A DNA stretch of 64,000 bases from the NCBI RefSeq assembly GCF_001642935.1, contig NZ_CP016761.1, positions 372,001-436,000 of the forward strand, in the 5' to 3' direction. Positions 35,314 through 37,920 of this stretch are shown piece after piece. The notes beneath the pieces were generated by a model. The model did no database searches and had not been told where the DNA came from. It saw only the letters and a list, made by a program, of their open reading frames with translations. Position 1 is the stretch's first letter; the number at the start of each line of letters is the position of its first letter. Both the position numbers and the translations under genes were made by a program. This stretch comes from Fictibacillus arsenicus. Its GTDB lineage: Bacteria; Bacillota; Bacilli; Bacillales; Fictibacillaceae.

Positions 35314-35376
35314 TTTTTCATGGAGATATTGTGATGTTATTAAATCAACCATTTGAAAATTAAGGAGCGAATTATA

Positions 35377-36783
35377 ATGAAAAAAGTCAACCGTACATTT
35401 GTAAAATCTTTAGTATTTGCTGGAACATTAACTCTTGCGGCAGTTGTAGGAACAGGTGCTGCTGAAGCGGCTGGTAATAAAACAGAGCATGCGATAAAGG
35501 CTCAAAGCTCAAAAGCATCTCAAGGACAAGTACAAGCTAAGGATGAGAAGTATGCAAAACCATCTAAAGTTACTGTGAAAGTTCAGAAACCAGTTAAAGC
35601 TGAAAAGCCGGTTAAGGCTGAAAAAGCAGCAAAACCTGCAAAAGCTGAAAAGCCTGTTAAAGATAAGAGTCACTCTCAAGGTGCAGAGCATGCAAGTGAA
35701 AATGCAAAGAAGCATGCTGCTCTTAACTCAGCTATTCATGCTGCTCCCACTGAAAAAGAAGAGCCAGTAGTAACTGAGCCTGTAACAGAGGAACCAACTG
35801 AGGTTACAGTTCCAGTTGAGGAAGAAGAAACTGAAGTAATCGAAATTGAAATTCCTGAAGCAGACAGTGATGAAGGTAAAACTGATGAAACTGTAACTGA
35901 AGAAGAGGATGCAACTCGCAACGATGAAGATACTGATGTGGATTCTGATGAAGAAGCTGTGAAAGAAGACGATGATGACTCTGAAACAGACGAAGTTCAA
36001 GAGGAAAATGAAGACAATCCAGTTAAAGAAGAAGAGGGGACAGATGTTATCGCTGACGAAGATGCAGTGAAAGAAGATGATTCTGACGAAGAAGAATCTG
36101 AAGATACTGAAGAAGTAAAAGAAAACAAATCTCTTCAAAACAAAATCAATTCTAATGCATATGAGCGTTCAAGTGAAAACGCGAAGCTGCATGCTGCACC
36201 AAACGCTGCTGTTCACGCTGCAGAAGCAGAAGAAGTACCAGCTGAAGAAGAAGTGACTGAGGAAGCACCAGCAACTGAGGAAACTACTACTGAAGAAGAA
36301 GTGACTGAGGAAGCTCCGGCAACTGAAGAAACTGCGACTGAAGATGAAGCAACTGACGAAGCTCCAGCAGCTGAAGAAACAACTGAAGAAGTTGAAGAAG
36401 AAGCAAAAGAAAACAAATCTCTTCAAAACAAAATCAACTCTAATGCGTATGAGCGTTCAAGTAAAAACGCGAAGCTGCATGCTGCACCAAACGCTGCTGT
36501 GCACGCTGTAGAAACAGAAGAAGCTCCAGCTGAAGAAGAAGTAACTGAAGAAGCACCGGCAACTGAAGAAACAACGACTGAAGAAGAAACATCTGAAGAA
36601 GTTACTGCTCTTTTAAACAAGATCCGTTCTTTAGCAGCTGAGCATGCTAGTGAAAATGCGAAACTTTATGCGGCAATCAATGCAGCTATTTTAGCAGTTG
36701 AAGATGTATTAGAAGAAAATGCTTCTGAAGTTGTTGAAGTACCAGCAACTGAAGAAGAGACAGCTGTAATTGAAGTAAAATAA
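35377..36783 (+). CDS. secreted acidic repeat protein
   Basis: 468 residues from the ATG with taaggagcg. Signal peptide MKKVNRTFVKSLVFAGTLTL then AAVVGTGAAEAA. After a Lys/Pro-rich part (KPVKAEKPVKAEK, about 50-100) come long Glu/Thr/Val stretches. Four copies of a motif S-x-NAK-x-HAA-x-NAA-x-HA (near residues 107, 267, 367, 425), two preceded by the same block NKINSNAYERSS, are spread between them. Likely surface or matrix protein; function unknown. Its extreme composition produces long false frames on the other strand. Confidence 0.8.
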   Translation: MKKVNRTFVKSLVFAGTLTLAAVVGTGAAEAAGNKTEHAIKAQSSKASQGQVQAKDEKYAKPSKVTVKVQKPVKAEKPVKAEKAAKPAKAEKPVKDKSHSQGAEHASENAKKHAALNSAIHAAPTEKEEPVVTEPVTEEPTEVTVPVEEEETEVIEIEIPEADSDEGKTDETVTEEEDATRNDEDTDVDSDEEAVKEDDDDSETDEVQEENEDNPVKEEEGTDVIADEDAVKEDDSDEEESEDTEEVKENKSLQNKINSNAYERSSENAKLHAAPNAAVHAAEAEEVPAEEEVTEEAPATEETTTEEEVTEEAPATEETATEDEATDEAPAAEETTEEVEEEAKENKSLQNKINSNAYERSSKNAKLHAAPNAAVHAVETEEAPAEEEVTEEAPATEETTTEEETSEEVTALLNKIRSLAAEHASENAKLYAAINAAILAVEDVLEENASEVVEVPATEEETAVIEVK

Positions 36784-37084: not shown

Positions 37085-37216
37085 CTAGACAGCTACACCT
37101 GCATCTTTAACAATGTATCCAACAATCTCAGCACTTATGGAGACAAGCTCTTTCCCTGCCGCATAAGTTAAATAATAACTATATATTCCAACGTTTTCTT
37201 TTAAAGGAACAGGGAA
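37085..37216 (-). pseudogene. possible gene remnant (C-terminal fragment)
   Basis: A 43-codon open stretch bounded by stops translates on the minus strand to FPVPLKENVGIYSYYLTYAA followed by GKELVSISAEIVGYIVKDAG and VAV. It reads like the end of a real protein but has no start or ribosome site. I do not recognise the family. The surrounding 36824-37248 region holds no other gene that I can see. Confidence 0.3.
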
Positions 37217-37248
37217 CTATATTCTTGAGAACAAAGGAGGTGGGTTAG

Positions 37249-37716
37249 TTGTTAAATACGGGCGATCGAGCACCAGATTTTACGTTGCCATCCACGCTTC
37301 AAAAAGATATTTCTTTGGCGGATTTTAGAGGCAATAAAAATGTACTTGTAGCGTTCTATCCGCTAGACTTTACACCTGGCTGAATAAAGGAAATCACCTC
37401 TTGGAAAGAGGATTATCAGCGTTTTAAAGATGCTAATACAGAAGTGCTTGCGATAAGTGTGGATCATATTTATTCCCATAATGTTTTCTCTGCTAGCCTT
37501 GGGACGCTTCCTTATCCGCTTTTAGCCGATTGGCATAAAAAAGTGACAAAAGCTTTTGGCGTATTAAACGAAAAGAATGGTACTGCAATTCGTTCTTGTT
37601 TCGTAATTGACCAAGATGGGATTATTCGATACTGCAACCATAAGTTTGATGCTAACGAAAGACTTCAATATGAGGAAGTATTTAAAGCTTGTGAAAACTG
37701 TGGAAAGGAAGAATAG
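37249..37716 (+). CDS. peroxiredoxin with in-frame TGA at the peroxidatic site (candidate selenoprotein)
   Basis: Reads as a 155-residue Bcp/AhpE-like peroxiredoxin if TGA codon 45 (37381-37383) is translated. The start is TTG with aaaggagg 8 bases before it: [20 protein letters not shown], then [13 protein letters not shown]-[TGA][11 protein letters not shown], [36 protein letters not shown], and an end with ACENCGKEE. The family has Cys exactly at the TGA position (FTPxCT). A hairpin CCTCTT-GGA-AAGAGG begins 14 bases after the TGA, as expected for a bacterial SECIS. Coding is intact after the TGA. Alternative: a recent nonsense mutation of the catalytic cysteine. Confidence 0.75.
37393..37414 (+). 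promoter_or_regulatory. SECIS-like hairpin after the TGA
   Basis: CCTCTT pairs with AAGAGG around a GGA loop, with AAT/ATT pairs outside a two-base bulge (37392-37413). The loop G lies 20 bases beyond the TGA. That fits the known bacterial rule of a G at the start of a small apical loop about 16-37 bases downstream. Confidence 0.6.
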
Positions 37717-37718
37717 CA

Positions 37719-37892
37719 ATGGACAAGAAACATAAATACAACAATCAACATGAAGATCCGACAGCACATGCTGAAAAGGAAATTAATGAATTTTTTTATG
37801 ATGAAAATCGGGAAGATGATGGTCATCCTACTGACTATATGAACAATGATATGCCAGCGGTAAATATTGCGAAACCTGATGATGAAAAATAA
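37719..37892 (+). CDS. small acidic hypothetical protein
   Basis: 57 residues (MDKKHKYNNQHEDPTAHAEK, EINEFFYDENREDDGHPTDY, MNNDMPAVNIAKPDDEK). It begins 2 bases after the peroxiredoxin stop with ggaaaggaag before it, so it is co-transcribed. Not recognised. A terminator follows. Confidence 0.7.
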   Translation: MDKKHKYNNQHEDPTAHAEKEINEFFYDENREDDGHPTDYMNNDMPAVNIAKPDDEK

Positions 37893-37920
37893 AAGCTGCA
37901 TTTAGCGGCTTTATTTTTTT
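37890..37920 (+). terminator. terminator of the peroxiredoxin unit
   Basis: AAAGCTGC pairs with GCGGCTTT around ATTTA (one mismatch), then A and a T-run. Confidence 0.75.

Follow-up and report, generated by a model that had tools for sequence, protein, structure and literature searches.

Selenocysteine (Sec) peroxiredoxins are an established bacterial selenoprotein family, as the initial annotation of the present locus had noted; reviews, in their available sections, enter it as 'Peroxiredoxin (Prx), TxxU' under PF00578/COG1225 (PMC9312934, PMC13188914). According to the accessible parts of earlier counts, 12 Sec peroxiredoxins were listed in 2006, when the Bacillales total stood at 3 selenoproteins of 3 families (PMC1794560), 43 were found in the Sargasso Sea (PMC1088965), and a survey of 2016 recorded 91 in 78 organisms (PMC5029168). 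A 2026 review states, in the section available, that aerobic bacteria seldom keep selenoproteins, the selenol being too easily oxidised (PMC13188914). The available sections of these five papers (PMC9312934, PMC13188914, PMC5029168, PMC1794560, PMC1088965) describe no Bacillales Sec peroxiredoxin, a listing in their supplementary material being possible.

The locus studied here lies in a window (the whole stretch of DNA analysed) of 64,000 nucleotides from Fictibacillus arsenicus. The genus presumably lives aerobically. Compared with the TxxU family, as far as the available descriptions go, the gene shares the PF00578 fold, the peroxidatic Sec, the PxxxTxxU motif and an in-frame hairpin after the UGA; it differs in that every sequence examined of its own group of orthologues (clade A) is a Sec form, and in the 3 nt hairpin loop of that clade. 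The Fictibacillus gene is an added member of this established family. Among NCBIfam families, the best score was obtained with PrxU (NF040737, which we take to be the Eubacterium acidaminophilum enzyme), but the 85.9 bits are far below the cut-off of 270 and the protein has 155 residues against the 233 positions of the profile. None of the 13 NCBIfam families listed for the read-through protein passed its cut-off. By the title cited for the PrxU family, its host is strictly anaerobic, unlike Fictibacillus.

Among the solved structures compared, the highest Z was found for the 1-Cys peroxiredoxin AhpE (1xxu, 4x0x), which is of the same length and has the peroxidatic residue, the Thr and the Arg in place. 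The Thr and Arg of the AhpE active site have catalytic roles. Clade A resembles AhpE also in having no conserved resolving Cys, although a CxxC is found at the C-terminus of the Fictibacillus proteins. The catalytic residue of AhpE is Cys and its thiol is mycothiol, which, to our knowledge, is not expected in bacilli.

Gene and reading frame

The following features define the gene, all on the forward strand:

37236..37244, + strand: ribosome-binding site GGAGGTGGG, kept in 13/13 aligned Fictibacillus upstreams, window included
37249..37716, + strand: predicted Sec-peroxiredoxin coding frame, TTG start, UGA as Sec codon 45, TAG stop, 155 residues
37381..37383, + strand: in-frame UGA in place of the peroxidatic codon (PxxxTxxU), TGA in 18/18 genus genomes and in 53/53 distinct clade-A sequences

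The initial annotation had described a continuous peroxiredoxin frame with a good ribosome site and a TGA at codon 45, placed at the catalytic Cys, and both points were confirmed. The TGA at 37381-37383 is the sole interruption of the frame and stands in the context FTPG-U-IKEI. When the UGA was read as Cys, the protein matched AhpC-TSA (PF00578) with an E-value of 1.6e-37 and 128.6 bits, against a cut-off of 26, over residues 5-128, with the UGA at the peroxidatic residue. Redoxin (PF08534) matched over residues 4-133 of the read-through protein. A plain listing of open reading frames of at least 60 aa returned only a 90-aa downstream fragment (37444-37716), so that automatic annotation probably misses or splits the gene, as had been anticipated.

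The window was also scanned for frames opened by one read-through TGA, with at least 40 codons before it and at least 60 after, and 17 frames were obtained; family matches were tried for the Sec-peroxiredoxin frame only. One frame with a single TGA (2271-2657) holds a tandem array at 2474-2644, with a 20-base unit, 8.6 copies and 94% matches.

The window protein ends in a CxxC (CENC). This feature, which had been pointed out before, is present in 18/18 Fictibacillus sequences and in 0/35 other distinct clade-A sequences; it thus stands for the genus but not as a feature of the clade.

Distribution and phylogeny

Within the genus, an orthologue was found in 18/18 genomes (one per species), with 77-99% identity and one TGA each. 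At a threshold of 1e-30, the gene was present in 26/34 genomes of the family, all with TGA, and the other 8 gave no match. The carriers belong to the own genus (18/18) and to the sister genus g4, taken as Pseudalkalibacillus (8/8); the gene was found in 0/7 genomes of g3 and 0/1 of g2.

The order was represented by 397 sampled genomes, which at 1e-25 gave 58 matching places, spread over 52 genomes. These places included 32 clade-A and 22 clade-B (WTPVUGAQ) places, and all 54 carried TGA. Four TGA-free matches were considered as Cys orthologues and rejected as Bcp/PrxQ-type paralogues (TPGCTTEACDFRD); no Cys orthologue was thus found among the matches at 1e-25 in this sample. Counting all clade-A loci, TGA occupies the peroxidatic codon in 72/72. 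A scan of 84,980 GTDB species genomes with two conserved peptides, which sees only genomes holding one of them, returned 43 loci. Of these, 28 were from Bacillales, 28/28 with TGA, and the other 15/43 were Flavobacteriaceae or Aquimarina genes with TGT or TGC, that is, Cys proteins. The latter were rejected as orthologues, the three that were placed in the tree falling on the Bcp side. Of 398 genomes sampled across the phylum, 12 gave a match; the window genome was the sole clade-A carrier among them, and three B-like genes with TGA were present.

In a tree of 51 proteins, which included 21 clade-A members, clade A formed one group (support 100/99), and clade B did so only weakly (support 76/44). 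Clade B (L117-L137, L139, e.g. L118) is a second Bacillales Sec-peroxiredoxin with the motif WTPVUGAQMPSYED. It resembles clade A in the Sec position, in a predicted structure downstream and in having TGA in 22/22; it differs in forming a separate clade, in its downstream motif and in a hairpin that lies further downstream. One genome (G155) has two clade-B copies and one clade-A copy.

It had been proposed to look for alternation between TGA and TGC/TGT at this position among orthologues, and no alternation was observed in anything found. The outcome that had been named as speaking against the Sec reading, with Cys in the relatives, TGA in this strain alone and signs of decay, was likewise absent, since 18/18 genus sequences and 32/32 order-sample orthologues have TGA. 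The proposal that this strain makes a selenium-dependent peroxidase is supported by the sequences as far as the Sec reading is concerned; it does not hold as a peculiarity of the strain, because the gene is genus-wide and present in many Bacillales. On the genomes compared, the Sec peroxiredoxin has a wider distribution, and is more consistently a Sec form, than the initial annotation supposed.

Selection on both sides of the UGA

Pairwise pN/pS was determined for the 40 codons preceding the TGA and, on its downstream side, for codons +1 to +4 and +10 to +100. In the genus (18 sequences) the upstream value was 0.113 and the downstream value 0.117; in g4 (8 sequences) they were 0.149 and 0.145. 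Selection therefore sees the full-length protein. No signs of decay were observed in these two genera.

These values bear on the possibility that an ordinary Cys peroxiredoxin has suffered a nonsense mutation, or that the TGA is a sequencing error. Such an explanation would agree with the ORF listing, in which a 90-aa fragment is all that appears. It is hardly credible when pN/pS is equal on both sides of the TGA, the TGA is shared by all 18 genus genomes and all 53 distinct clade-A sequences, and the hairpin described below is conserved. By its conservation, the UGA at 37381 is a sense codon under selection.

The hairpin downstream of the UGA

37397..37411, + strand: SECIS hairpin, arms 37397-37402 and 37406-37411, loop GGA 37403-37405

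The hairpin CCTCTT-GGA-AAGAGG, with its first base 14 and its loop G 20 bases after the TGA, was found exactly as it had been reported. Its folding energy is -6.0 kcal/mol, with a z of 0.07, and 94/200 shuffles fold equally well or better. Since shuffles fold as well, folding energy was dropped as evidence for the hairpin, and the argument rests on conservation.

Nearly the whole hairpin corresponds to codons +5 to +9 (ACC TCT TGG AAA GAG). Among the 26 family genomes these codons show zero synonymous change (pS 0.000) and rank lowest of 132 overlapping five-codon windows, for which the median pS is 0.695. All six pairs form in 53/53 distinct clade-A sequences (318/318 cells), two of them with one G-U variant each. 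In L071 and L115, which belong to one genus, two pairs are changed on both sides, from C-G to U-A and from U-A to C-G; these double compensatory changes are probably one event. In the control, shuffles were 98.8% paired on average, and 0/500 reached the observed level. The observed count of double-change pairs was reached by 4/500 shuffles, and the number of further pair types, one of five covariation measures, was not above shuffles (500/500). When the 3' arm was slid by 1 to 3 columns, pairing dropped to 65-68%. The conservation pattern indicates that the hairpin after the UGA is under RNA-level selection.

A published model of bacterial SECIS elements (PMC13188914, Fig. 2 legend) served for a comparison made by hand. 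As given there, the model has an apical loop of 3-9 nt, a stem of 4-16 bp, a G in the first two loop positions, 16-37 nt from the UGA to the apical loop and an MFE <= -7.5 kcal/mol, and a subset of SECIS elements lies outside it (PMC13188914). The window hairpin falls within the model in its loop (3 nt), its stem (6 bp), its spacing of 19 nt and its loop GGA, both G columns of which are invariant in the 53 sequences. It differs from the model in its energy, which misses the limit: both the hairpin and the first 50 nt fold with -6.0 kcal/mol. Over 57 nt, -11.0 kcal/mol is attained, but a second hairpin is needed for this. Among the 53 distinct clade-A sequences, 19 reach -7.5 kcal/mol within the first 50 nt.

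Sec-decoding machinery

The initial annotation had named selA, selB, selD and tRNA-Sec as the genes on whose presence the Sec reading depends, and all of them are in the genome, which consists of one contig (C1) of 4,055,461 bases. SelB is full-length (361 bits, cut-off 242, C1:2017222-2019084), the tRNA-Sec scored 58 bits against a gathering score of 47 and has the anticodon TCA (ARAGORN), and SelA matched with an E-value of 1.6e-138. The genes selB, tRNA-Sec and selA lie within about 9 kb. They are adjoined by selD (L016:16554-17609, about C1:2022553-2023608), which carries a UGA of its own in GGUGCK and scored 414 bits with the SelD profile when this UGA was read as Cys. Ordinary calling would give selD a truncated N-terminus. 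A gene for MnmH (tRNA 2-selenouridine synthase) lies about 7 kb from the tRNA-Sec gene (L016:2126-3178).

Two formate dehydrogenase alpha genes scored above the family cut-off (L153 at C1:2138770 and L154 at C1:1016590). Formate dehydrogenase alpha is the selenoprotein most usual in bacteria; here, both copies have Cys at the Sec place, in NCSRYC, which we take to be the position of U in the Sec form. The interval between selB and selD (L016:13095-16527, L168:11144-14581) holds a glycosyltransferase and a phosphonate-type ABC transporter, with PhnE and PhnC above their cut-offs in Fictibacillus and similar ORFs in G030. Two further matches stayed below the cut-off, namely that of the Fictibacillus binding protein to a putative selenate transporter family and that of the glycosyltransferase to the selenosugar synthase SenB. 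From these matches, the genes may possibly serve selenium uptake or storage.

Across the order sample, a strong SelA match (E < 1e-100) was found in 48/49 genomes that carry a clade-A or clade-B peroxiredoxin with TGA, compared with 181/397 overall, as counted by hand from tables of genomes that are related to one another; 57 further genomes of the sample gave a weak SelA match only. Neither Sec-peroxiredoxin was found, at the threshold used, in 133/181 SelA genomes, and within the family SelA occurs without the peroxiredoxin gene in 7 genomes of g2 and g3. The Sec trait thus often serves other proteins and does not predict the gene.

The exception among the carriers is G029, in which the TGA peroxiredoxin is intact but neither a SelA match nor a tRNA-Sec above the cut-off was obtained. 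In its sister G030, a block of 19.5 kb contains selA, selD, selB, the tRNA-Sec gene and the aconitase AcnA (1487 bits). This block gave 12 matches each in G028 and G032, a few of them at other places of these genomes, whereas in G029 only two short stretches (185 and 41 bases) were matched. Since aconitase is unlikely to have been lost, the pattern is more simply explained by a missing contig. The sel genes are probably lacking from G029 through an assembly gap, or else they were lost very recently.

G029 is the genome that would speak for a UGA decoded by a suppressor or near-cognate tRNA, giving Cys or Trp instead of Sec, and low-level read-through does occur without a dedicated system. What is missing from G029 is the whole syntenic block, aconitase included. 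With the complete Sec machinery in the window genome, SelA in nearly all carriers and a hairpin under RNA-level selection, decoding as Cys or Trp is highly improbable. The gene very probably encodes a selenocysteine peroxiredoxin, as judged from the sequence comparisons.

Promoter and neighbouring features

37193..37217, + strand: GTTTTC-N13-GGGAAC, a sigma-B-like promoter whose first base is 56 nt upstream of the start codon
37719..37892, + strand: ORF of 57 aa, acidic, directly behind the peroxiredoxin
37892..37919, + strand: inverted repeat with a T run behind it, terminator-like, read by eye

The pattern GTTTTC-N13-GGGAAC or a close variant, which we take to be near the sigma-B consensus, occurs in 18/18 Fictibacillus upstreams, with its first base about 56-58 nt before the start. 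As it was written after the upstream alignment had been viewed, it is a lead. It was found in 4/35 other clade-A upstreams and in 0/25 B-type upstreams. Dinucleotide shuffles give expectations of 0.72/53 and 0.25/25; a sigma-B reading outside Fictibacillus was set aside as weak on these counts. In Fictibacillus, the upstream sequences suggest that the peroxiredoxin is induced via a sigma-B-like promoter.

A stress promoter would also fit a conditional use of the gene, in which the main product is a truncated peptide of 44 residues, or the UGA and hairpin act as a regulatory, selenium-sensing switch with rare read-through. Bacterial Sec insertion competes with termination, which counts in the same direction. 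Against this, constraint on codons +1 to +4 and +10 to +100 is no weaker than on the codons preceding the UGA, and such a role is therefore very unlikely to be the main one. The full-length selenoprotein is the reading followed below.

The 57-aa ORF was found in 11/12 named Fictibacillus loci and in 0/16 other named loci compared, and gave no NCBIfam match. It is possibly co-transcribed with the peroxiredoxin. The gene is also adjoined by a secreted-looking Glu/Thr-rich repeat protein (window 35353-36783), whose gene contains a 48-base tandem repeat at 36242-36391; an ORF similar to it is present in 10/12 named Fictibacillus loci.

Fold, active site and proposed mechanism

The AlphaFold model, based on 43 sequences, had a mean pLDDT of 92. 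The highest VIA-align Z was obtained with AhpE (4x0x; Z 24.6, rmsd 1.6, 148 residues, 37% identity), and it is within 1 of the Bcp4 and Prx I entries. The top profile matches also include 2-Cys Prx and Bcp entries. Given this tie in Z, the fold does not settle the peroxiredoxin subfamily.

Thr42, residue 45 and Arg115 are invariant in the 43 sequences, residue 45 being the only invariant Cys/Sec column. In the motif PxxxTxxU of the 53 distinct clade-A sequences, T and UGA were found in 53/53, P in 43/53 (window included) and G in 10/53. The Gly for Pro, unusual for a peroxiredoxin, occurs in L058, L061, L063, L066, L069, L091, L093, L096, L097 and L098, with the variant motif FYGMDFTPGU (FYGMNFTPGU in L066).

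Cys148 was considered as a clade-wide resolving residue and rejected, because a Cys within the C-terminal 12 residues is present in only 34/53 distinct clade-A sequences, and 17/53 contain no Cys anywhere. Since no Cys is kept clade-wide and so many sequences lack any, the comparison points to an ancestral catalytic cycle that was most likely one-Sec with an outside reductant. The C-terminal CxxC of Fictibacillus may be a lineage addition, perhaps providing resolving residues.

By analogy with the known bacterial pathway, SelD and SelA would make Sec-tRNA-Sec. SelB, holding the hairpin at 37397-37411, would deliver it to the ribosome, and Sec would enter at position 45. As in the family, the Sec45 selenolate, positioned by Thr42 and Arg115 within a fold like that of AhpE, is expected to attack peroxide and to form a selenenic acid. 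The latter could be reset by an outside thiol, either a thioredoxin-like protein or bacillithiol, which we presume to be a candidate reductant in Fictibacillus. Through the sigma-B-like promoter, the enzyme would be induced in the general stress response of Fictibacillus.

Implications

Fictibacillus, presumably an aerobic spore-former, might keep its Sec apparatus chiefly for one stress-induced (sigma-B) selenoperoxidase, both copies of the usual client, formate dehydrogenase, being Cys forms. SelD was the only other selenoprotein seen when SelD and formate dehydrogenase alpha, the two candidates considered in this genome, were inspected, and SelD would serve the selenium supply itself, that is, the Sec apparatus and MnmH. 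Most SelA genomes of the order are without a Sec-peroxiredoxin, which makes such a single client less likely, and on balance we regard it as rather doubtful. If true, it would oppose the idea that aerobes give up their selenoproteins on account of an oxidative cost of Sec.

The predicted peroxide-defence selenoenzyme is fixed in 18/18 genomes of a genus of bacilli that is taken to be aerobic. Of the 397 genomes sampled from the order, 49 carry Sec peroxiredoxins, which belong to two clades; ordinary ORF calling splits or loses such genes. The hairpin would represent a compact SECIS element (6 bp, 3-nt loop) for which natural compensatory variants are available, and the genus offers a culturable lineage for asking why Cys does not replace Sec.
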